From an uncultured Opitutaceae bacterium (GTDB lineage Bacteria; Verrucomicrobiota; Verrucomicrobiia; Opitutales; Opitutaceae), in assembly GCA_937942145.1 (NCBI GenBank), contig CALDFV010000151.1, forward strand, positions 1 through 44,172: 44,172 bases of DNA. Direction: 5' to 3'. The notes below the pieces were generated by a model. That model was not told the DNA's origin. It saw nothing but the letters and a program-made list of their open reading frames with translations, and made no database searches. The number at the start of each line of letters is the position of its first letter. Positions within the stretch are counted from its first letter, which is position 1. Positions 725-30,971 of this stretch are shown here, piece by piece. Made by a program: the position numbers and the translations under genes.

Positions 725-2209
725 ATGCAGGAAACAAAATCACACCCCACTTGGTTCGGACATCCTACCGGTCTTTCCACGCTATTTTTCACGGAGCTTT
801 GGGAGCGGTTCAGCTACTATGGAATGCGAGCTCTGCTGGTCCTCTTTATGGTGGATACCGTCAGTTCGGGAGGCATGGGCCTCGATGACAAAACGGCCAG
901 CGCGATCTATGGCTTGTACACGGCGTTCGTCTATCTGGCGGCGTTGCCTGGCGGCTGGATCGCCGATAGGCTCCTCGGGGCGCAGCGGGCTGTCTGGGTT
1001 GGGGGACTGGTGATCGCTGCGGGCCATTTCACCTTAGCGATTCCTTCTACAGCGGCGTTTTTTATCGGACTGGTTTTAGTCGTGATTGGAACCGGTTTGC
1101 TAAAGCCGAATGTAAGCGCTATCGTGGGACAGCTTTATCCGGAAGGGGGCGCTCGGCGTGATGCGGGCTTCACTATCTTTTATATGGGCATCAACATGGG
1201 CGCTTTTCTGGGGCCGCTCATTTGTGGCTATTTGGGCGAGGAAGTGAACTGGCATGCTGGATTTGGCGCGGCTGGAGTGGGAATGTTGTTCGGCGTCTTC
1301 CAGTACCGATTTTCGGCGAACCGTCTCGGAGAAGCGGGGCTTCATTCTTCGGCTCCGAAGGTTGATTCGGCAGGAATGGATAAAGCCTGGTATCCTGTAA
1401 TCGGCGGCTGCTTGATTGTGGTGTTGGTGGTGGTGCTTGGGTTGACCGGAACTTTAGAATTCAATGCCTTGGCCTTGGCCCAGAACACGACCTTCGTGAT
1501 CGTAGGGCTGGCCTTTGCCTTTTTTGTCTACATTTTCGCCTTCGGCAAACTGACTCCGAAGGAACGTAATCATACCTTCGTTATTGTAGTGCTGTTTATA
1601 ACCTCCGCGGTCTTTTGGTCGGGGTTCGAGCAGGCGGGATCCTCATTAAATCTCTTTGCGGATAGGCACACCGATCGCATGTTATTTGGATTTGAGATTC
1701 CAGCTAGCTGGTTCCAGTCGCTTAATCCGTTTTACATTGTGGTATTGGCCCCGGTTTTCGCCGCTGTTTGGGTTAAGCTGGCCAGACGTCAGCTGGATCC
1801 TTCCATGCCCGGTAAGTTTGCCATTGGCCTTTTAATACTGGGACTAGGCTTTCTGGTCATGGTTGTGGCGGCCAAAATCGTTGTGGCTGGCAATCAAGCC
1901 GCTCCTTATTGGCTGATTCTAACCTACCTGCTGCACACGATGGGTGAGCTTTGTCTGAGCCCGGTTGGTTTGAGCTCGGTTACGAAACTGGCGCCGAAAA
2001 GATTTGTGGGGCAAATGATGGGCATTTGGTTTTTGGCAACATCGTTGGGAAATCTCCTAGCCGGACTGATGGCGGGCCGGTTCAATCCGGAAGCTCTCAA
2101 CGAAATGCCGGGGCTCTTTATGCAAATCGTCATAACGGTAACGGTTGCCGGTTTGCTCCTGTTGGCGTTTACTAAACTGATCAAGGTTCTGATCGGAAAA
2201 ATCGAGTAG
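725..2209 (+). CDS. POT/PTR2 family proton-coupled peptide transporter
   Basis: Inner-membrane symporter of di- and tripeptides of the major facilitator superfamily. The 494-residue length fits the family. Near the N-terminus is the family motif ELWERFSYYGMR (ExxERFxYYG, proton coupling), and around residues 150-170 is the second signature FYMGINMGAFLGP. Hydrophobic segments run along the whole protein, consistent with 12-14 helices. The ATG lies 9 bp after kbl; no clear Shine-Dalgarno is seen (TAGAGTTTAATC precedes it). Amino acid catabolism next to peptide uptake makes sense as one nutritional unit, but that link is inferred. It converges with the following minus-strand gene, with only 17 bp between the two stop codons. 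Confidence 0.94.
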   Translation: MQETKSHPTWFGHPTGLSTLFFTELWERFSYYGMRALLVLFMVDTVSSGGMGLDDKTASAIYGLYTAFVYLAALPGGWIADRLLGAQRAVWVGGLVIAAGHFTLAIPSTAAFFIGLVLVVIGTGLLKPNVSAIVGQLYPEGGARRDAGFTIFYMGINMGAFLGPLICGYLGEEVNWHAGFGAAGVGMLFGVFQYRFSANRLGEAGLHSSAPKVDSAGMDKAWYPVIGGCLIVVLVVVLGLTGTLEFNALALAQNTTFVIVGLAFAFFVYIFAFGKLTPKERNHTFVIVVLFITSAVFWSGFEQAGSSLNLFADRHTDRMLFGFEIPASWFQSLNPFYIVVLAPVFAAVWVKLARRQLDPSMPGKFAIGLLILGLGFLVMVVAAKIVVAGNQAAPYWLILTYLLHTMGELCLSPVGLSSVTKLAPKRFVGQMMGIWFLATSLGNLLAGLMAGRFNPEALNEMPGLFMQIVITVTVAGLLLLAFTKLIKVLIGKIE

Positions 2210-2226
2210 TTTGTTTTTCAGGACAA

Positions 2227-4044
2227 TTATTTCGATAGTTCGAGATCGAACAGAAGCGTGCGGACGTATTGCGTGGGAATTGATCCGAATGATAACACGC
2301 TGTCGTGATAGGTTTTCAGGTCAAACTGGCTCCCCCACCTTGTTTCGGCGTCGGCCCGCAAGTCTACATGCTCAAGGTAGCCCACAAAATAGGTTGATAG
2401 CTGAGCCGAAGTGAGCTGGGCCCGGCGCCATTTGCCGTCCGCTTCGCGCTCCTCCTGAAAGGCCTCCTCCACCAGCATACGCATGCCTTCCTCTTTTGAA
2501 ATACCGTCTACGTGTACTGCCTGATCGAGTAGGGCGTTCGTGACGTCGCGAAGGTACCATTTCAATACGATGAGGCGCATTAGAAGGTCGCCTTCCAGAA
2601 AGCCTTCTTCGCACATCATCCATTCGGAGTAGACTGCCCAACCCTCGACGAAGACCCCGGAAGATAGGACCGCGCGGAGTTTGCGTGGATTCCGATTGGC
2701 ATGGGCGAGCTGGACAAAGTGCCCTGGCATGGCTTCGTGAACAGTGAGGTTGTGAAGCGACCTATGATTGTATTCGCGAAGATGGGATTCGACCTGCGCC
2801 TCGGTCCAGGATGCGGGAGGGGGCGCTACGGCATAAAACGTTTTGAGACCCGTTTCCAAGGGTCCTGGCGAGTCGCAATAAGCCAGCGAAACCCCGCGCT
2901 GGAATTCCGGCATCACAATGATTTCCATAGGATCATCGGGTAGAGTGATGATGTCTTTTTCTCTCAAAAAGTCAGTGGTCAGTTTAACAGAATGGTTGGC
3001 CGCGGCGACCACTCCATCGGCACTAGGCCGATCCTGGTAGGCGATTTCCAAGCACGATCTAATGATCGCCTTCTGGTACGCTTTGGATGGGCTCTCAGGA
3101 AATTCGGTATAGGGAAAACGCTCTTTGTATATCTCCTTGGATAGGGCGTACATGCGTTGATGAAGATCGTGCATGAAGTCCTCGCCGCGTTTGCGAATCT
3201 TTTCCCGGCTTAGAGAGGACTGTAGCGTCCAGGATAGTTTTTGATCGTACAGTCGAGCTCCAAGGCGGAAGTCGGCTTGTGCCTGCGGTTGTAATTCGTT
3301 TTCCAGCCATCGTTGGTGTTCCTCAACGGATTCGCGGGCGATTTCAATTGCTTGGGCGAGGCGTTGGCGATCCGTTTCGTTGAGCTCGTTCAAATGCGGT
3401 TCGATTAGATTCTCAATAATACTCAGGACTCCTCGGTTCTGGCTGACAGCGGTCTCAGCGTGAATTCTTGGGACGCGTATAGGAGCTAGCTCCGTTCGAG
3501 TTTGGGTATAGAGTCTTGGCAGCTTTTCCAAACGTGCCGTTGCGGATCTCAAGCGATCGGCGAGAGGAGCAAATTCTCTCGCCATGAGACCGTAGATGGA
3601 GCTGCCGACGAGTCCTGAATAGTAGAGTGGATTCCATGCCCATTCCTGGAGTTCTTCCTGCTTCCAAAGGGCCGCCTTAAGTCGATGCGCTAAGAGAGCT
3701 CGATCAATCTGCTCATCCAGAGATAGACTGGACTCCGTCAACGATTCGAGTTCGCTGAGAATTTCACGATAGAAACGGGCTAGTTGCTCCCGACCTTTTG
3801 CACTGACATCGTTGATCTCGGTATCAAATCGATGGTCTCCTATGGCGGTGGCGCTAATTGGATTGAGCCTGGCGGACTCTTCGAAGTAGCGATTGACGAC
3901 CGTGTCGAATCGTTGGTTGGATTCCTGCCCGAATAGCTCATTTGTAAACATGGAGATTGTTCCCGAGATGAAAATTGCCCAAATGCCGGCGGTCTGAAAA
4001 TCTGACATTGTATGCAAAGTATAATGGCGCCTCCGGTGTGACAA
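2227..4044 (-). CDS. DUF885 family protein (putative exported metallopeptidase-like)
   Basis: A 605-residue member of the DUF885 family. Members have an HExxxGH-type zinc-peptidase-like motif, here HEAMPGH at about residues 436-442, with a downstream EGWAVYSEW glutamate segment at about 467-475. The C-terminal half is well conserved; the substrate is unknown. A hydrophobic stretch (AGIWAIFISGTISMF, residues 19-33) suggests export or an N-terminal anchor. The chosen start is a TTG preceded by GAGGGG at 8 bp, an unusually good ribosome site here. An ATG 12 codons downstream (4008) is the alternative and lacks such a site. The protein is encoded alone on the minus strand. Confidence 0.85.
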   Translation of the reverse strand: MSHRRRHYTLHTMSDFQTAGIWAIFISGTISMFTNELFGQESNQRFDTVVNRYFEESARLNPISATAIGDHRFDTEINDVSAKGREQLARFYREILSELESLTESSLSLDEQIDRALLAHRLKAALWKQEELQEWAWNPLYYSGLVGSSIYGLMAREFAPLADRLRSATARLEKLPRLYTQTRTELAPIRVPRIHAETAVSQNRGVLSIIENLIEPHLNELNETDRQRLAQAIEIARESVEEHQRWLENELQPQAQADFRLGARLYDQKLSWTLQSSLSREKIRKRGEDFMHDLHQRMYALSKEIYKERFPYTEFPESPSKAYQKAIIRSCLEIAYQDRPSADGVVAAANHSVKLTTDFLREKDIITLPDDPMEIIVMPEFQRGVSLAYCDSPGPLETGLKTFYAVAPPPASWTEAQVESHLREYNHRSLHNLTVHEAMPGHFVQLAHANRNPRKLRAVLSSGVFVEGWAVYSEWMMCEEGFLEGDLLMRLIVLKWYLRDVTNALLDQAVHVDGISKEEGMRMLVEEAFQEEREADGKWRRAQLTSAQLSTYFVGYLEHVDLRADAETRWGSQFDLKTYHDSVLSFGSIPTQYVRTLLFDLELSK

Positions 4045-20002: not shown

Positions 20003-20383
20003 CTAGTTGGAGGCAAAGGAAAATTCGAATTTGACGATTTCGATTTTGCTCGAGCTCAATTTTGGATCCTTGAGTACTGCGGAAAGACGGATTTCTTCTA
20101 AAACGGCTTTCAGCTCTCTTGTGTACTCGAGATCGTCACTGGGTCCAAACATGTAGACCAGCTTTTGGTGAGTGTACCGAATGTACCAGCCCTCGTCGGT
20201 TAAACCAAAGTCCGTGACATCGATTCCTGGATACCGTTTCCTGAATTGGCCGTGACTCATGGCCCCGCTATCGATGACGGCTTCTAGTGGATAAACGATT
20301 ACCTTGGTAGGCGTGCTCTGAGCCCATGCCGTTCCCATAAGTAGAGTCAGCGTCAGCGAAAATATGCAAAGAATTCGAGTCAT
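20003..20383 (-). CDS. Small exported protein of unknown function
   Basis: The 126-residue product matches no family I recognise. A clear signal peptide (MTRILCIFSLTLTLLMGTAWA, cleavage likely after an AWA site) is followed by about 105 mature residues with mixed charge and no cysteine. The C-terminal end is rich in Ser/Lys/Phe. It is the third gene of a minus-strand operon, after the TPR-PEGA and Gly/Gln-rich genes and 30 bp behind the latter, so it probably belongs to the same envelope assembly. It could be periplasmic or surface-exposed. Confidence 0.72.
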   Translation of the reverse strand: MTRILCIFSLTLTLLMGTAWAQSTPTKVIVYPLEAVIDSGAMSHGQFRKRYPGIDVTDFGLTDEGWYIRYTHQKLVYMFGPSDDLEYTRELKAVLEEIRLSAVLKDPKLSSSKIEIVKFEFSFASN

Positions 20384-20413
20384 TGTCGTTGCGCGGAGGC
20401 GCGGTGTCTTGAC

Positions 20414-21412
20414 CTACAAGTTGCTGGACATTTTTCCGCCTTCTTCGGTGCCTTTAGCTCGGTTAGATCCTTGGCTTCCGCCACCCCCTACTTGCTGGCC
20501 ATCGGATTCAGTAACTTTCTTGCCGTTGTCACCCCCTGATTGTCCACCACTCTTGGCCTTGTTCTGGTCGCCGGATTCACCGTCGCTTGCGCCGTCTGAA
20601 GTTTGCGCATCAGGGTCGTTCCCGGTCAAATCTCCGATGGGTCCTCCGATTTGATCAGAAGCGCTTCCAATCTGAACGTCCGGAGGGGGAGGAGGCAATT
20701 GTCCGAGAGGCGATTCACTTGCTTGTCCCCCTTCTCCTGACTGTCCTTGTTGCCCTTGAGATCCCTGTTGTCCCTGCTGACCTTGTTGCCCTTGCTCGCC
20801 CTGTTCTCCTTGCTCGCCCATTTGCCCCATCTGTCCCTGCTGACCTTGTTGCCCTGCATTGGAAGGGGGCATGGGTATAAGAGGAGCGTTGTTGCTTTGG
20901 GAACCTTGACTCCCTTGGCTGCTAGAGCTGCTCATGGGAGGCATTCCCGAGCTGCTCTGTCCTTGTTGTCCGCCGCTAGAGCCACCTTTGGGAGGCAGCC
21001 CCATACTGCTTTGGCTTTGTTGCCCTCCGCCTGAGCTTCCTCCACCCATGGGGATTGGCATGCCACTGCTTCCGGAGGAGCCTCCCGACATCCCGCCTTG
21101 CATGCCTCCGGGCATCCCTGGGGTGTTAATGGGAATGTTTAAACCGGTTCCGCCGGGTATATCGATGGTACCTAACGGTGGAAGGGTGGACTCGTCTAAA
21201 ATCGAAACATCGCCGCCAATGGGAATGCCGCCTGCGGAAATGGAAGGACGTCCGCTACGACCTTGATTGGATCCGCTGTTGGGGCCGGCCCCATTGGCCT
21301 CTCCTTCGAAAATCTTGGGGTCTGGATCGAACTGCGCAATTCCGCTCTGGCAAAAGAGCGCGGCGGCTGCGACTACGGAAAGAAGCAAAGTTGAATGGCG
21401 TCGATTTTTCAT
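20414..21412 (-). CDS. Exported Gly/Gln/Ser/Pro-rich protein with collagen-like tract
   Basis: Mostly low-complexity protein of 332 residues. A signal peptide covers residues 1 to about 26 (SVVAAAALFCQSGIA). Then come an Asp/Asn/Gly region, a Gly-Gly-Ser-Met-Pro region (about 95-175), and a collagen-like Gly-X-Y tract at 187-228 in which X and Y are mostly Gln, Glu, Met and Ser rather than Pro. A PPPPPP run near 240 and a Gly/Asp/Ser/Lys-rich tail follow. No enzymatic domain is visible. Such composition suggests an extended, flexible extracellular or periplasmic polymer. It follows the TPR-PEGA gene by 19 bp. Plus-strand open frames here are artefacts of the composition. Confidence 0.8.
   Translation of the reverse strand: MKNRRHSTLLLSVVAAAALFCQSGIAQFDPDPKIFEGEANGAGPNSGSNQGRSGRPSISAGGIPIGGDVSILDESTLPPLGTIDIPGGTGLNIPINTPGMPGGMQGGMSGGSSGSSGMPIPMGGGSSGGGQQSQSSMGLPPKGGSSGGQQGQSSSGMPPMSSSSSQGSQGSQSNNAPLIPMPPSNAGQQGQQGQMGQMGEQGEQGEQGQQGQQGQQGSQGQQGQSGEGGQASESPLGQLPPPPPDVQIGSASDQIGGPIGDLTGNDPDAQTSDGASDGESGDQNKAKSGGQSGGDNGKKVTESDGQQVGGGGSQGSNRAKGTEEGGKMSSNL
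20729..20854 (-). repeat. Collagen-like Gly-X-Y repeat made of two 63-bp units
   Basis: Fourteen uninterrupted Gly-X-Y triplets (residues 187-228 of the exported protein) are encoded here. The tract divides into two 63-bp, seven-triplet units. A 24-bp identical segment recurs at 20769-20792 and 20832-20855, exactly 63 bp apart, which indicates an internal duplication. Confidence 0.8.
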
Positions 21413-21431
21413 TTCTTAGGCGGTTGGTGGA

Positions 21432-23144
21432 TTACAGTTTTTCATCGCATATCACTGTGAGTGGCGATTGGGCGACCCCTCCCCTGACTTGGAGTCTATA
21501 TTGAATATCTTCGTACCCTTTTTTGCGACCAATAATACGGTAGTCGCCGGGCAATAGGTTCATGGTAGATTCTTTAAGCTTAGTGGGCTTTTTGGCAGTC
21601 GGACCCTGTACGCTAACCCATGTCGCCATATCGGAGATAAAGAGAACCTGAACGGGTCTACTTTGGGTGATGAGGTGTTGCTGCAAGCGCTTTGCTTCAT
21701 CGGTTAGTTCGAGATAGTCGGGCTTGGATCGCATCGCCTGGTCCCAGGATTGGCGAGCGAGCTGATACTGAAGCCGCTTTGCCTCAATCGCTGCGATTTC
21801 CAAGTACTTTTCGTAACGAAGTATGCTGCGAATCACTTTCCCGGTTCGTAACAGCCCATCTTTGGCTTCCTGGAGGTTGGGCTCCATGTCGATCAATTGC
21901 TGGTAGATCACTCGTGCTCCTTCCCAATCCCGATTTTCACTTTCCAAAGCATAAGCCCGTGTAACCAACGTCGTGATGTCGCTCTGACGCTTGTCTGTTC
22001 GGGCCTTGACGATGGAATCGGCCAATTCCTTGCGATCTGGAAAAATAGCGAGAGCTAGCTGAAAATTCTCGATCGCTTCATCAAAGCGGTAGGACTGCTC
22101 TGCGTTCTGGGCGATCGTTAAATACTTGCTGAAGTCACGATTCTCAATTTTGCGCCGCACCCGGGAAACCCCGTTCTGAGCCTTCGCAGATTTCGGGTCT
22201 TTTTGGAATGCTTGCTGATAGGCAATGAGAGCCTCCTCGAACGCTTCGCTGCGTTCCTGTACCTCACCTTTCTTGACGAGATTGAAAACGTCGTCGGCAG
22301 TCTTCGCTCGTTCGATTTGAAGGATGGCATTTTCGTTTTGGGGATCGATCGAGAGAAGATTCGTGAAGGCTTCGATTGCTTTGGCCCCCTGTCCTTGCGC
22401 AATGTATCGATGCCCCAAGGCCGCGTTCTCGCGTATGTAGTTGGATATGGAGTCCGCAAGGGCCTGGAGTTTGTCCGTTGCTTCCGTTAATTTTGTTTTA
22501 GATGCGGTGAACGAGCCTTCAGTGAGAAACTGCTTCCCGGCGCTGGCGGCGTCGAAAGCATCGTCATAGGCCTCTTGATTCAGGTGTTTAGAAGGCTTTA
22601 GCTCGTCGACTCGAGTCAAGAAGTTGTCGTACATCTCCTGGGTAGCGAGCTTTGCCTCCACCAAATTCGAAAAGTCCTCGATTTGCACGTTGACCCCTTT
22701 GAAGGTTTCAAACGCCCGATCGAAGGCTTTTCGCCTCATGAGGTCTTCGCCCTGCAAGAACTCGCGTTCCACCGCGACTAATTTTGTTGTGAGAACGGGG
22801 TGGTTGACCCGCATTTGGCGAATTTTCTCCAATCCGCTGTTAGCGGTTTCAAGCTCAAGATCCGCTTTGGACCGGCTTGCGAACGCTTGCTGGAAGGGGA
22901 CTTCCGGCATGGTCTCGTCAGTAATTCCGAGTCGGTCCGTCAGGGCCTTGGCGTCTTTGTCCGGATTTTCCCACAATGCGATCACGCTGACTAGCAGGAC
23001 AACGACAACGGCGGCTGATACGCCTACCGCTATCGATTTACGTTTTGAGGACCGCGCTCTTTCAGCCGCTTCCTCATCCTCTGGATTCCAGTGGATAACT
23101 CTGTGCTTCCGAGGGTTTTGATGGTTCTCTTCCATGTCCGGCAT
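21432..23144 (-). CDS. Membrane-anchored TPR protein with C-terminal PEGA domain
   Basis: A 570-residue protein with a cytoplasmic charged N-terminus (1-36), a single transmembrane helix at about 37-58, and a long helical region. The latter contains TPR-like repeats, for example ALGHRYIAQGQGAKAIEAF, AFEEALIAYQQAFQKDPKSA and RFDEAIENFQLALAIFP. From about 500 a PEGA-type beta domain is seen (VQVLFISD, MNLLPGDYRIIGRKKGYED). TPRs imply protein binding and PEGA domains are linked to surface-layer proteins. The exact role is unknown. It is the first gene of the three-gene exported-protein operon. AAGGAG lies 12 bp before the ATG, one of the few clear ribosome sites in the window. Confidence 0.83.
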   Translation of the reverse strand: MPDMEENHQNPRKHRVIHWNPEDEEAAERARSSKRKSIAVGVSAAVVVVLLVSVIALWENPDKDAKALTDRLGITDETMPEVPFQQAFASRSKADLELETANSGLEKIRQMRVNHPVLTTKLVAVEREFLQGEDLMRRKAFDRAFETFKGVNVQIEDFSNLVEAKLATQEMYDNFLTRVDELKPSKHLNQEAYDDAFDAASAGKQFLTEGSFTASKTKLTEATDKLQALADSISNYIRENAALGHRYIAQGQGAKAIEAFTNLLSIDPQNENAILQIERAKTADDVFNLVKKGEVQERSEAFEEALIAYQQAFQKDPKSAKAQNGVSRVRRKIENRDFSKYLTIAQNAEQSYRFDEAIENFQLALAIFPDRKELADSIVKARTDKRQSDITTLVTRAYALESENRDWEGARVIYQQLIDMEPNLQEAKDGLLRTGKVIRSILRYEKYLEIAAIEAKRLQYQLARQSWDQAMRSKPDYLELTDEAKRLQQHLITQSRPVQVLFISDMATWVSVQGPTAKKPTKLKESTMNLLPGDYRIIGRKKGYEDIQYRLQVRGGVAQSPLTVICDEKL

Positions 23145-26515: not shown

Positions 26516-27631
26516 TTAGGGTGATTCCTCGGCAGGAGGAACCACTAAGGGAGCGGGCGTCTCTTCAACCGGTTCAGGGGCGTCAGAGAGCAGGGCATCC
26601 AAAGATTCTGGCAGACTGGTGAATTGGTAGGAACTCACTTCGAATGCAGAGCGGCTCATGTATTCGTTAACTGGATCGCTTGCATCACTGGATGAAATAA
26701 AGAAGTAGACCGGGCCTTCTGGTGTCACCACCTCTTCTTCCATTTCCGTCGTCTTCTCCCCGTTCTCGTCTTCCTTTTCGACTTCCTTCTCTATCTTCAC
26801 TTCCGGTTGGCGTCCGATTGTAAACTGATAGCTTTTGCCGTTGTTCAGTTGGAGATCGAATTGATGGCTGTTCTCACGAGCAGCGACTACGTTGGGTCCA
26901 TCTTTGTCTGCGGTGGCAGTGAAGCTGAGCCCGGCAAATTTCGACGCGATTTGTCCGACAGAGCTCTGGTTCAGGATTTTCTTTTCCGGAAGCGAGTCAT
27001 CTGTGGTCCAGTCCGAGTCGGCATTGTCGCGAGTTGCCGAAAGCTTGTCTCCGTTTTGCAGTGTAGCGGTGATCGCTGCCACGTCGTTCGCTTCGAAGGA
27101 AACCAGCTTTTTCTCCAGCCAAGAGTCGAGATTGGAGTCAATGTAGAAGGTCGTATTCACTAGAAATGCCTTTTCCTCGCCATTGAAGCGGAGGAACTGG
27201 CGTCCGTTTTCGGTCTCCTTGCCGAGCCCGAAGGCAACGATATCGTTATCGAGTTTGTCGATGAACTGAATGCGGTCACCTCCCTCAAAGCCTAAGGTAG
27301 CGATCCGATCCGGGTTTTCACTCACAAGTCTTTGAAGCTTCGCTTCGGAAACATTCCGGGCTAGTTGTGAGATACGAGTATAACTGGTAGGAAGATTGTG
27401 TTTCTCTTCCAGTACCCAGGCCTTCTTTTCCTCGTCATTGACAAGCGTGATCTTCTCGCCATCGGTCTCGACAACGATTTTTGCGGTGTCGCGTAGATTC
27501 GCGGGGTCGACTAAATTAGAGCCCACGCGTTCGTCGAGCAAGGGGGCACTGCTAGTGCGAGTTAAAATGCTGGTGATGATTGCAAGGACAGCAAGGACTC
27601 CAGCGCTGATGTATAAATGCTTTATATTCAT
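26516..27631 (-). CDS. DUF4340 domain protein of a Gld-type ABC system
   Basis: A 371-residue membrane-anchored protein with an N-terminal helix (about 7-24), then repeated beta-rich DUF4340 segments, for example VVETDGEKITLVNDEEKKAW, LGFEGGDRIQF and LSFTATADKDGP. The tail is rich in Glu and Pro (residues 345-371). DUF4340 proteins accompany GldG-like and ABC-2 genes, but their function is unknown. It is the last gene of the four-gene operon, 8 bp after the GldG-like gene. It carries no catalytic motif I can identify. Confidence 0.82.
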   Translation of the reverse strand: MNIKHLYISAGVLAVLAIITSILTRTSSAPLLDERVGSNLVDPANLRDTAKIVVETDGEKITLVNDEEKKAWVLEEKHNLPTSYTRISQLARNVSEAKLQRLVSENPDRIATLGFEGGDRIQFIDKLDNDIVAFGLGKETENGRQFLRFNGEEKAFLVNTTFYIDSNLDSWLEKKLVSFEANDVAAITATLQNGDKLSATRDNADSDWTTDDSLPEKKILNQSSVGQIASKFAGLSFTATADKDGPNVVAARENSHQFDLQLNNGKSYQFTIGRQPEVKIEKEVEKEDENGEKTTEMEEEVVTPEGPVYFFISSSDASDPVNEYMSRSAFEVSSYQFTSLPESLDALLSDAPEPVEETPAPLVVPPAEESP

Positions 27632-27639
27632 TGTAAGTC

Positions 27640-29508
27640 TTAGAGTGCTTTTTGTTTACGCATGCGGTAGAAAATGAAACCGAATATGACGAGACCAATG
27701 GGCGAGTATCCGATATTCAAGGATACTAGCTTCCACTTGAGGGCGTCGATGTCTTTTCGAAGTTCACGCCGAATGACACGTCTTTCTGCTCTCATGTTCG
27801 CTTCGTTTTCCCGAAGTTCCTGCAAGGCGTTTGAAAGCTCTGGGCCCGCAACGATTAATCCTGTGCCCTGTTGTTGGGTTACTAGTTGCTGTATCTCCTG
27901 ATTCATTTCGGAGATCTTTTCCTCAACTTCCTGAAGCTTGATTTGATATTGTTTCTGAGCTTCAACTTCCATCGCTTGGACGCGGTCGAACGATCTGGCC
28001 TCTTCTCCTTTGCTGCGGATGCCAATCAGATCCTGACTTCCGCCAAGAAACTCGATGACGTTTGTACCCATGGTCAAATTGTCATTGATTGGCTGAATGG
28101 TCATCATGCCGAGGAAGTTTTGACGTCGGATGGAAAACTGGTCGAGTAGCCAGTCGGTGTCAGCAATTATGAATACATTGCCTTCTCCCGTGTAGCGTTG
28201 ATCGGATCCTTCTGTGGTTTCCTCACTTTCTGGCGAAGCACTCGGATCGGAGGGCTTTCCATTGGGGAACGCCGTCGTAAACTCTCCGCTGAGCAATCCG
28301 GCTACGGTCTGTTTTTCGTTAGAGGCTTCCAACTGATTCAAGAGCGCGCCTTGCTGGGCAAACTGAAGCATCATCCCGGCGACGCTGCCGGCACTTTCAG
28401 TTGTCTGCAAAATCGGCTCGAGAGTGAGCTTAGAGCTTTCGTCCAAGCCGAGGCTCCCCGCTTCGAGAAGCAAGACCGCATTGAGCTCAGCGGCCGGAAG
28501 GAAATCTTCGGCGACATTGTCTTCGCGAAAAATGAGCCAGGCTGGCTGCATGGTATTCTGTTGAGTATATGCGATGTCAGGATCGGCGAGCGCTTCACTA
28601 GCGGAGTAGCTGATACCCCAAGCAGAAAAGAACGGTTGGAAATCGCTCGAAGTATTCGGATTGGGGCGACCCATCATCATCTGATTCTGTTGCTGCTGGC
28701 TTCTGAAAAAGAGCGATGAGGGATCGACTGCGAGGAACATGGGCTTTCCTGACAGCGTGAACTGGTCGATGCCAAAGAGAAGCGTTTCCGGAAGCCCGAT
28801 GGGATGGATCACCATCAGCATATCTAGGTCTTGTGGCAATTCCGAAGCCGTAGGCTCGATAACCTCAACATTGAACGAGCTCTCGAGCTCGCTGATGATG
28901 TATTGGTCCTCTTGTGGCGGTTGTCCGGGCATCATCGGCATCGGAGGCGCCTTCAGCGGCAGCGTGCTGATCAAGCCCAATTTTGGCTTGGACAACTGCT
29001 GCGCTTCATGGACCGCTTTTGCGATGTCGTATTCAATAGAGCCTTCTTTATTCCAATCGAAGAAGGGAATCACGTGTTCGGAATCCCCCTGGCTGATCAC
29101 CAATCCAAGGAAAATGGTGTCTCCATTGGGCAGGCTTTGGCCATGGACACCTGCGGCAATCGCGTTTTCCTCCGCAGGCGTATCGGGTTCAGGGTCGATC
29201 CGATCTAAAATGATCTTTCCATTGGCGGCCCGCTCGAACTGACGGAGCATCTGTTCTACGCGATCTCCAAAGTTCTGGATGTGCATCTTGATTTGAGGTG
29301 AAAGCCCCTCGACTGATCGGGTCCGGTAAAAGTCGAACCGAACCGGTTCTTCGACTTTGGAGAGCAGCGATTTGGCGCTGTCCGAGAGCGTAAAAGAATT
29401 CCCCGCTGTCATATCAATCCTTAGTGGTATGGATGAAAGGACGTAATGCAGCAGGAGAAAATTTACGAGGATGAGAATGGCGGCGTGAATTTTTGTACTC
29501 GTTTTCAT
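27640..29508 (-). CDS. gldG: GldG-like ABC-transporter auxiliary membrane protein
   Basis: 622 residues. An N-terminal helix (about 7-25) and a C-terminal helix (about 595-615) flank a large extracytoplasmic part containing GldG/ABC_transp_aux-type segments, for example VRFDFYRTRS, ILDRIDPEPDTPAEE and IAKAVHEAQQLSKPKLGLI. A coiled-coil-like stretch (about 515-590) precedes the last helix. In Bacteroidota GldG works with GldA and GldF in gliding; in other phyla the same unit occurs without gliding genes and its substrate is unknown. It lies 18 bp after the permease gene. Confidence 0.85.
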   Translation of the reverse strand: MKTSTKIHAAILILVNFLLLHYVLSSIPLRIDMTAGNSFTLSDSAKSLLSKVEEPVRFDFYRTRSVEGLSPQIKMHIQNFGDRVEQMLRQFERAANGKIILDRIDPEPDTPAEENAIAAGVHGQSLPNGDTIFLGLVISQGDSEHVIPFFDWNKEGSIEYDIAKAVHEAQQLSKPKLGLISTLPLKAPPMPMMPGQPPQEDQYIISELESSFNVEVIEPTASELPQDLDMLMVIHPIGLPETLLFGIDQFTLSGKPMFLAVDPSSLFFRSQQQQNQMMMGRPNPNTSSDFQPFFSAWGISYSASEALADPDIAYTQQNTMQPAWLIFREDNVAEDFLPAAELNAVLLLEAGSLGLDESSKLTLEPILQTTESAGSVAGMMLQFAQQGALLNQLEASNEKQTVAGLLSGEFTTAFPNGKPSDPSASPESEETTEGSDQRYTGEGNVFIIADTDWLLDQFSIRRQNFLGMMTIQPINDNLTMGTNVIEFLGGSQDLIGIRSKGEEARSFDRVQAMEVEAQKQYQIKLQEVEEKISEMNQEIQQLVTQQQGTGLIVAGPELSNALQELRENEANMRAERRVIRRELRKDIDALKWKLVSLNIGYSPIGLVIFGFIFYRMRKQKAL

Positions 29509-29526
29509 GTCAGTATATTCCCGTTT

Positions 29527-30246
29527 CTAATTTTCCAAAACGATTACATTGATGCCCAGGAAGGCGATGGTCAGGACGACGAAGAACGATACGGCGCTTA
29601 GTTCAATGAGTCCGCGAGTCATCGTCTGAAAGTGATTGAGAAAACTGAAGTTGCCGAGGAAGTCTAGGAGCCCAGGGGACGCAATATTCTCGAAGATGGT
29701 TAGCAAGATTTGCGAACCGAAGAGTGTCACCAGCACGCAAATCAATACGCTGATGACAAAGGCGATCACTTGGTTTTTTGTCAGTGCCGAGCAAACTGAG
29801 CTAATAGACAGATAGGCAGCGGCCATGAGAACGGATCCGAAGTAGCCGGAGAAGATGATTCCCCAATCCGGATTGCCAAGGTAGCTTGTGGTTAGGGCCA
29901 GGGAAAAGGTCAGTGCCAGAGCGATCCCGATGAACGCCCAGGCGGCGAGAAACTTCCCTAACACTGCGCTCATGGTCGGTATAGGCAGGGTAAAGAGAAG
30001 CTCGATACTGCCTGATCTTTTCTCTTCTGACCAAAGCCGCATTCCTGTGGCGGGAATGAAAATCAGGAAGGTCCAGGGAAGGAAGGTCCAGATGGTGTCC
30101 AGGCTGGCCTGGTTGCTTTCGTAGTAGCCGGCGAAAATGGCTAGCCCGACGAGGACGATATGGAATACGGCTAGAATCACGTAGCCGACGGGCGAACGGA
30201 AATAGCCGAAGAACTCTTTCTTGAATATAGGAGCAATCTGGTTCAT
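29527..30246 (-). CDS. gldF: ABC-2 type permease, GldF-like
   Basis: Inner-membrane permease of 239 residues with about six hydrophobic segments. It begins with the typical QIAPIFKKEFFGYFRSPVGYVI; the SPVGY motif is characteristic of this GldF/ABC-2 group. GMRLWSEEKRSGSIELLFTLP follows at about 68-88. The start overlaps the ATPase stop by 4 bp, so the two are translationally coupled. The transported substrate is unknown. Confidence 0.87.
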   Translation of the reverse strand: MNQIAPIFKKEFFGYFRSPVGYVILAVFHIVLVGLAIFAGYYESNQASLDTIWTFLPWTFLIFIPATGMRLWSEEKRSGSIELLFTLPIPTMSAVLGKFLAAWAFIGIALALTFSLALTTSYLGNPDWGIIFSGYFGSVLMAAAYLSISSVCSALTKNQVIAFVISVLICVLVTLFGSQILLTIFENIASPGLLDFLGNFSFLNHFQTMTRGLIELSAVSFFVVLTIAFLGINVIVLEN

Positions 30247-30971
30247 GCGTATGCCTTACTGTTGGTGATTTCACGGAAAATTTCGTCGATGGAAGATCCG
30301 GGTAGTCGTGTTTTGAATTCCTCAGGGGTTTCATTCACGCGCACCTTTCCTTGGTCGATGACGATGATGCGATTACAGATCGCTTCGACTTCCTCGAGAA
30401 TATGGGTAGATAGGATGATGGCTTTTTCCTCAGCCATTGCCTTAATCAAGTTTCTCACCTCGTGCTTTTGGTTCGGATCGAGACCATCGGTAGGCTCGTC
30501 GAGTATGAGAACCGGTGGATCGTGCAGGATGGCTTGGGCGACACCGACTCTTTGACGGTATCCCTTGGAGAGCGTTTCAATGGCCTGATTCTGCACAGTT
30601 TGCAGGTGACATTTTATGATGACGTTGGCCAGGCGGTCGTGGATTTCATCCTTCGTGCGATAGCCTCTGGTTTCCGCGACATAGGTCAGGAACTCGACAA
30701 CCGTCATCTCTGGGTAGGCAGGGCTGCTTTCTGGCAAATACCCGATACGTCTCTTCGCTTCCATCGGATCTTTCTGCACGTCGAATCCCGCTACTGAGGC
30801 GGTCCCGGCAGTCGGTGAAAGGTAGCCTGCGATCATTTTCATTGTGGTGGACTTGCCCGCACCGTTGGGACCAAGAAAGCCAAGAATATCGCCTTTCTTA
30901 ACCTCGAAGGACACGCCGTCGACGGCTCGCAAGTCCCCGTAGTCTTTGACTATATTATCTACAATTACCAT
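30243..30971 (-). CDS. gldA: ABC transporter ATP-binding protein, GldA-like
   Basis: Cytoplasmic ATPase of the ABC-2/GldA class, 242 residues. Walker A is GPNGAGKST at about 34-42, the signature is LSKGYRQRVGVAQA, Walker B is LILDEPTDGLD, and the H-loop is STHILEE. The residues GYLPESSPAYPEMTV match GldA/NatA-type members. It opens the operon ATPase-permease-GldG-DUF4340. About 200 bp lie between this gene and the HAD gene upstream, with no supported coding sequence. Confidence 0.9.
   Translation of the reverse strand: MVIVDNIVKDYGDLRAVDGVSFEVKKGDILGFLGPNGAGKSTTMKMIAGYLSPTAGTASVAGFDVQKDPMEAKRRIGYLPESSPAYPEMTVVEFLTYVAETRGYRTKDEIHDRLANVIIKCHLQTVQNQAIETLSKGYRQRVGVAQAILHDPPVLILDEPTDGLDPNQKHEVRNLIKAMAEEKAIILSTHILEEVEAICNRIIVIDQGKVRVNETPEEFKTRLPGSSIDEIFREITNSKAYA

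Follow-up and report, generated by a model that had tools for sequence, protein, structure and literature searches.

A conserved three-gene operon of Opitutales as a likely envelope partner of ExbB/TolQ-type motors with paired vWA proteins

Paired TPH-vWA proteins of Proteobacteria and Verrucomicrobia have been predicted to act as axles within TolQ-like pentamers (PMC12204202, 2025), the 5:2 assembly and its proton-driven rotation likewise being predictions. The section of that paper on the TPH-vWA family gives no function and no partner beyond TolQ, and a TPR gene is mentioned there just for the other, Tichowtungia-type family. Here we describe a trio of genes at positions 20003 to 23144 (minus strand) of a 44,172-nucleotide stretch of DNA from an uncultured Opitutaceae bacterium (assembly GCA_937942145.1, contig CALDFV010000151.1, positions 1 to 44,172 of the forward strand; this whole stretch is referred to as the window). 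The trio encodes a TPR protein, a low-complexity middle protein and a small protein, and it is a real, conserved unit. Because its genes and an ExbB/TolQ-type motor share genomes and often adjoin in relatives, the trio is likely to be the envelope part of that motor. Taken loosely, the whole statement that it forms the envelope partner module of a proton-driven ExbB/TolQ-type motor is given a probability of roughly 0.62. The motor, which is encoded elsewhere in the window genome, was overlooked by an original prediction made from the window alone. The features of the trio are as follows (G, C and L numbers below are our handles for genomes, contigs and loci).

21432..23144, minus strand: gene 1, TPR protein with one membrane helix, 570 amino acids (open reading frame list, Pfam, AlphaFold)
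23076..23108, minus strand: conserved N-terminal motif KHRVIHWNPED of protein 1, residues 13-23, presumed cytoplasmic (alignments; the topology is inferred)
22965..23036, minus strand: putative single transmembrane helix of protein 1, approximately residues 37-60 (hydropathy; AlphaFold helix 21-58)
21663..22895, minus strand: helical/TPR region of protein 1, residues 84-494 (Pfam, AlphaFold)
21486..21653, minus strand: predicted C-terminal six-stranded beta domain of protein 1, PEGA-like but unproven, residues 498-553 (AlphaFold, Pfam, hhalign)
20414..21412, minus strand: gene 2, low-complexity, exported-looking, putatively two-ended 'tether', 332 amino acids (open reading frame list, hydropathy, end motifs)
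21302..21331, minus strand: conserved N-terminal docking-like motif FDPDPKIFEG of protein 2, residues 28-37 (pattern across loci)
20720..20854, minus strand: 15 Gly-X-Y triplets of protein 2, Gln-rich and without Pro, residues 187-231 (run measurement)
20417..20455, minus strand: conserved C-terminal motif KGTEEGGKMSSNL-COOH of protein 2, residues 320-332 (pattern across loci)
20003..20383, minus strand: gene 3, small exported-looking protein in its tail-less form, 126 amino acids (open reading frame list)
20027..20305, minus strand: conserved domain of protein 3, residues 27-119, predicted order beta-alpha-alpha-beta-beta-alpha-beta, with GWYIRYTHQKLVYMFGP (alignment, predicted structure)

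The coordinates of the open reading frames (ORFs) confirm three minus-strand genes with gaps of 19 and 30 bases, as originally read. To sample loci, contigs of named genomes were scanned with an alignment of the small domain and the best 80 of 81 loci were taken, all from Opitutae, Opitutales or Opitutaceae genera or Verrucomicrobia-type bacteria (including Pelagicoccus, Opitutus, Lacunisphaera and Oleiharenicola). The order TPR, middle, small was found in all 73 Opitutales-type loci with a detected TPR gene, the TPR gene lay upstream on the same strand in 67/67 loci with at least 3 kb of upstream sequence, and the seven loci without a TPR match terminate close to the small gene. Blast of loci placed the trio in order within the genus and in other families, and TPR relatives were present in 18 of a set of 38 genomes of relatives (window genome counted). 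The expectation that the genes stay together across Opitutia-type genomes was thus borne out, with no scattering seen in the loci examined.

Linkage to the motor is seen in G018, G028 and G031, in which the trio lies beside an ExbB/TolQ-like gene, a further gene and two genes (VWA1 and VWA2) sharing an SFLDCxxCGFGA-type stretch. The motor genes of G028 gave PF01618 in the ExbB/TolQ-like protein, an FHA match in the product of the further gene and a weak VWA match in one of the SFLDCxxCGFGA-type proteins. VWA2 was convergent to the trio in 30 of the 60 loci that extend 4 kb or more downstream. In 26 loci the TPR gene occurs together with the complete set of four motor genes, in a single orientation in 26/26 and with VWA2 beginning 4 to 5247 bases past the small gene; divergent from the motor in these 26 loci lie a Gly-zipper gene (23) and a DUF4136-like gene (22). 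A further protein, FHA-like in L026, sits between ExbB and VWA1 in most loci. When 21 genomes with the trio but no nearby motor were searched whole, VWA2 was found elsewhere in 18, and among the other 30 loci 7 more, besides the 21 searched whole, appear to match VWA2-positive genomes (L134 and L136 were left out of this check). The window genome (G000) has the motor on a different contig; this contig, C130, starts inside the operon (ExbB is thus not seen there) and carries the vWA pair at 872-1936 and 1933-3078; the close relative G010 has the whole motor operon (blast).

The assignment of the motor rests on the ExbB-like protein of G007, which matches MotA_ExbB (PF01618) with E 6.4e-14, and on the motifs GTVRG and FNST, found in 28/28 ExbB sequences. 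Fourteen VWA2 and 13 VWA1 proteins, the window-genome pair included, carry an Asp inside an invariant F-x3-F-L/x-D-x-I-x-C-G-F-G-A stretch, and this N-terminal hydrophobic stretch, read by eye, is probably transmembrane. Pfam VWA_3 matches 10/13 VWA1, and [DE]-x-S-G-S occurs in 36/36 VWA2 (as DTSGSM in 31). The vWA profiles compared with the PDB gave mainly coiled-coil matches to the linker, not to the vWA domain. A single-sequence search of the FHA-like motor protein against the PDB for an actin/Hsp70-like origin was empty, and a profile search returned weak FHA matches (CHFR, E 0.073) and one weak Hsp70-type match (E 0.24). There was no match to VWA2 in plasmid records and none to ExbD among the motor-operon proteins scanned (not every neighbour was covered by an ExbD model). 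Genes identified by Pfam as ftsA and ftsZ are found within a few kb of the motor operon in G007 (L119, 1483-14105), and G010 (L130) is alike by its ORF starts. A second, divergent operon on contig C300 of G018 (L032, 5579-17920) gives that genome a paralogous motor system; it comprises a TPR relative, a PEGA plus FGE-sulfatase (GldK-like) protein, an 88-amino-acid protein ending MPSDV, ExbB and vWA genes.

Co-occurrence was counted in three sets of genomes; it should be noted that the sample of named loci overlaps these, so that the samples are not independent. In the order sample (177 genomes; small protein searched with the window sequence at a cut of E 0.001, vWA and TPR proteins with alignments at E 1e-10) 23 genomes had both the small protein and the vWA proteins, three the small protein only and none the vWA proteins only, G086 and G172 being counted as vWA-positive on partial matches. 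Those with the small protein only were G037 (82% complete; an ExbB match lies at a contig edge), G133 (75% complete, no strong ExbB match) and G088. By genus, the small protein was found in 16/77 and vWA in 14/77. TPR relatives were found in 29/177 genomes, namely the 26 small-protein genomes and G087, G101 and G121. In the phylum sample (288 genomes) a TPR relative with the C-terminal domain was present in 21 genomes, VWA2 in 20 and both in 20, leaving one genome with TPR only and none with VWA2 only. In this count weak VWA2 matches in G255, G353 and G392 (E 5e-7 to 1e-4) were not counted, ten repeat-only TPR matches were excluded (G220, G223, G280, G290, G343, G346, G390, G394, G400 and G417) and G327, matched only in the C-terminal domain, was taken as a TPR relative, these row exclusions being chosen after the tables had been seen. 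Among the 38 relatives 16 had both TPR and VWA2 and three were discordant (these at most 89% complete). The data show a conserved operon, motor linkage and matched presence and absence, and an association of the trio with the motor is very probable.

The exception G088 is 99% complete and has no vWA and no strong ExbB match, and its TPR gene contains two in-frame stops; in its congeners G056 and G072 both TPR and VWA2 are open. Such decay is what would be expected if the TPR protein lost its use after loss of the motor, assembly error being the alternative. The TPR pseudogene locus (L276, 7294-10198) is in a motor-less genome of 1.7 Mb, and the small protein there is without its usual C-terminal helix.

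Protein 1 had been predicted as a single-helix TPR protein with a PEGA-type domain. The TPR repeats are confirmed by Pfam (TPR_2, E 2.7e-13, 49.4 bits against a cut-off of 27, in three stretches), and the single helix by a lone strongly hydrophobic segment at about residues 34-62 and by an AlphaFold helix at residues 21-58 of modest confidence. Within the N-terminal motif I17 and W19 are invariant (alignment of 50 sequences). The AlphaFold model (mean pLDDT 85.5, pTM 0.50) shows an extended array of helices and, C-terminal to it, a six-stranded domain, and resembles the peptide-binding TPRs of CHIP, Hop and FKBP52 with Z about 8-9, scores that are common among helical repeats. The PEGA label is not established: PEGA (PF08308) gave no Pfam match in the whole protein nor in its C-terminus alone at E up to 10, sub-threshold matches were seen in 2/4 relatives scanned (E 0.11 and 0.056), and hhalign of the C-terminus with four true PEGA repeats gave a probability of 30%, the similarity being in-register but weak.

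Protein 2, judged from hydropathy and sequence, is exported-looking. Its longest Gly-X-Y run is real, at 15 triplets (14 in the original prediction; 1000 shuffles gave 3.9 on average and 9 at most), but it shrinks to 2-12 triplets in the 13 relatives measured. A collagen fibre as the main function of this protein was rejected, as the run is not conserved and in the window has no Pro. What is conserved is the ends. The middle ORF bears the C-terminal motif (most commonly M/I-P-x-G/N/D-L at the carboxyl end) in 73/73 loci with a TPR gene, as against 3/3507 other ORFs; the end patterns were composed after the ends had been viewed and the 73/73 is therefore descriptive. At the N-terminus a pattern search recovers a DPDPxIFDG-type motif in 70/73 loci, with variants visible by eye in the other 3, and in 16/3507 other ORFs of those loci. 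The linker between them is poorly conserved and differs strongly among loci, and the middle ORF ranges from 220 to 466 amino acids (some starts are possibly too early). Because conserved end motifs flank a poorly conserved 'collagen' linker, the layout of the middle protein suggests a tether with two ends.

Protein 3, also exported-looking on hydropathy and sequence, had been assigned to no recognised family, and this stands: it gave no match in Pfam or NCBIfam and no significant match in the PDB. Block pLDDT values for its predicted domain are 92-98 (residues 31-120), and the best structural matches were Foldseek E 0.95 and VIA Z 2.7, a lack of match that does not prove a new fold. The SPOR fold presumably shares its order of strands and helices, and was absent from the Foldseek and VIA matches listed. 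The protein stops soon after the domain in 15/80 loci, including the close relatives of the window and Pelagicoccus, and carries a long tail in 63/80, the other 2/80 being cut by contig ends. In 62/63 long-tailed proteins a loose pattern finds a short hydrophobic helix-like C-terminal motif, and 38/63 have two or more DGDG units. The tails of L149, L159, L173 and L189 contain repeated MDGDGIPN units, which we take to resemble thrombospondin type 3 calcium-binding repeats.

We infer the topology, binding partners, ion flow and pulling action as follows. The rotor would consist of two different single-helix vWA proteins, their genes accompanied by one for a further, putatively cytoplasmic protein, FHA-like in at least one relative. 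Protein 1 would serve as a scaffold anchored in the inner membrane, its TPR array and beta domain facing the periplasm. Protein 2 would be a disordered rope carrying conserved docking motifs at its two ends, of which one probably lies in the groove of the TPR array or against a vWA domain and the other contacts an outer partner. Protein 3 would be a periplasmic domain to which most relatives add a flexible tail and a hydrophobic C-terminal helix. Ion flow would turn the vWA pair and tug the chain, so that an outer-membrane partner is moved or re-patterned in the manner of TolA/TonB. We give this rope mechanism less than an even chance. The notion of an envelope assembly displaying a polymer, as originally proposed, survives in the envelope assembly and in the TPR protein as its likely scaffold; the collagen-like display does not, the run falling to the few triplets noted above in relatives while the ends are conserved. 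Less likely is that this is an undescribed trans-envelope machine, powered by the proton motive force and conserved across Opitutales, with a force-transmission design distinct from that of TolA/TonB. In such a machine the vWA rotors would pull an exported disordered rope, with a peptide plug at each end and an inner-membrane TPR scaffold holding it, and a second, tailed protein, possibly of a new fold, would act as the outer receiver.

Several results weigh against the trio as partner module of the motor. Three of the 21 whole genomes (G466, G467 and G469) have the trio without VWA2, trio and motor are unlinked in the genus of the window, and G087, G101 and G121 (88-95% complete) have a TPR relative without vWA or a strong ExbB match, although this TPR is perhaps a paralogue like that of L032. 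The Fisher values for co-occurrence, though tiny, take no account of relatedness. Where the motor occurs in other classes of the phylum it is accompanied by a TPR relative, but the profiles found no middle or small protein adjacent to it, and because of this two of the three trio genes are lineage-specific. As to the motor itself, a stricter transmembrane pattern fits 5/33 VWA1 and 7/36 VWA2, VWA_2 matches 3/14 VWA2, the two window-genome proteins gave no match to VWA Pfam domains, so that their vWA call rests on relatives, and FHA was above cut-off solely in L026, and in neither L024 nor L119. In 33/33 VWA1 the metal-site motif lacks its acidic residue, so that VWA1 and VWA2 may differ in the partners their vWA domains bind.

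Of the other explanations the one that survives best, though we regard it as improbable, is that the trio regulates or assembles the motor, as a scaffold or as a sensor through its cytoplasmic arm, the middle protein being a soluble adaptor and not a rope. The length range and strongly variable linker of the middle ORF suit an adaptor as well as a rope, and the conserved, presumed cytoplasmic motif of the TPR protein and the FHA-like protein in the motor operon (L026) are consistent with regulation. Conserved ends around a low-complexity linker are nevertheless the layout expected of a tether, and the small protein repeats the pattern with its long tail and C-terminal hydrophobic motif in 62/63 long-tailed loci. 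Considerably less probable is an independent envelope scaffold displaying a collagen-like fibre, associated with the motor through shared ancestry. The Gly-X-Y run exceeding all shuffles and the lack of linkage in the window genus speak for it, but the short, variable run of the relatives and the missing Pro do not, and shared ancestry alone would not predict the convergent order in 26 loci, the patchy matched presence across families and classes or the pseudogene in a motor-less genome.

That the whole system is a Zorya-like anti-phage defence, with an ExbB-type motor and accessory proteins, is very unlikely: the ExbB-like protein weakly matches PADLOC ZorA models (E 6.8e-5), and the Gly-zipper protein matches LeoBC (E 1e-6) and VWA1 LmuB (E 0.0013), both probably via helical stretches, but the three window proteins are without a PADLOC match, beyond ZorA no Zor protein was found among the nine scanned, vWA rotors and exported partners are to our knowledge not Zorya parts, and the housekeeping neighbours of the trio (NAD kinase, FtsJ-like methyltransferase and M48 peptidase) are constant in L021, L022, L023 and L031, unlike those of mobile defence genes. 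Equally slight is the chance that the system replaces Tol-Pal, for which a motor of the same type, its position near ftsA/ftsZ in G007 and G010 and the divergent Gly-zipper and DUF4136-like genes (outer-membrane lipoprotein-like by name) could be cited, since TolB-like proteins are present in 36/38 relatives with and without the motor (best E mostly about 1e-40 to 1e-67, in a search that is unspecific, with none above the family cut-off and 10/14 control genomes positive, Bacillus and archaea included).

Around the trio a promoter scan found 0 promoter-like sites, a terminator scan found three terminator-like sites, each on the strand opposite to the trio, and a search of the window for RNA families found none. 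Near the trio (window 26516-30971, minus strand) lies an ABC transporter cluster including ABC_transp_aux/DUF7088 and DUF4340 proteins, which we take to be of the GldFG-like kind and the order of which is unchanged in the genus loci read. In another class (L269-L272) the TPR relative occurs with a gene of about 400 amino acids starting MERIRS or MERVRG and one of about 300 amino acids ending KLWKEYEAYLDG; the vWA genes of these genomes are located elsewhere, and in L272 a PEGA plus FGE-sulfatase gene adjoins the cluster.

For paired vWA TolQ-type motors, three proteins can now be proposed as partners, among them a linker protein whose ends are conserved and a small domain for which no significant structural match was found. 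As cultured carriers exist (Pelagicoccus mobilis KCTC 13126 is among the loci and has VWA2 in its genome), their function is testable through gene deletion.

No paper listed in a literature search describes the trio in its title or abstract start, most subscription papers and all preprints being outside its scope. With bacterial collagen-like proteins it shares a Gly-X-Y run, unlike theirs in being unconserved and Pro-free, with the ends conserved instead. PEGA plus FGE-sulfatase genes (GldK-like, below cut-off; L029, L032 and L272) accompany a TPR relative and the same motor class in the same genomes, and none was found among the ten window neighbours scanned. Tol-Pal and TonB-ExbBD resemble the present system in their PF01618 motor and in the proposed transmission of force across the periplasm, and CpoB of Tol-Pal is a TPR protein too (PMC12204202). 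They differ from it in that here there are vWA rotors and a putatively disordered, two-ended middle protein, and no Pfam match to TolA, TonB, TolB or Pal was found among the trio or motor-operon proteins scanned, the TolB-like genes noted above being located elsewhere. The closest likeness is to the TPH-vWA/TolQ motors, in which a TolQ/ExbB-like protein likewise adjoins a heterologous pair of single-helix vWA proteins, the helix bearing a conserved Asp; the likeness to the motors of PMC12204202, which include Idiomarina proteins, is one of layout. Unlike the arrangement given in the TPH-vWA section of that paper, the motor described here has in most loci an extra protein (FHA-like in L026) between ExbB and VWA1, and the trio forms a second operon.

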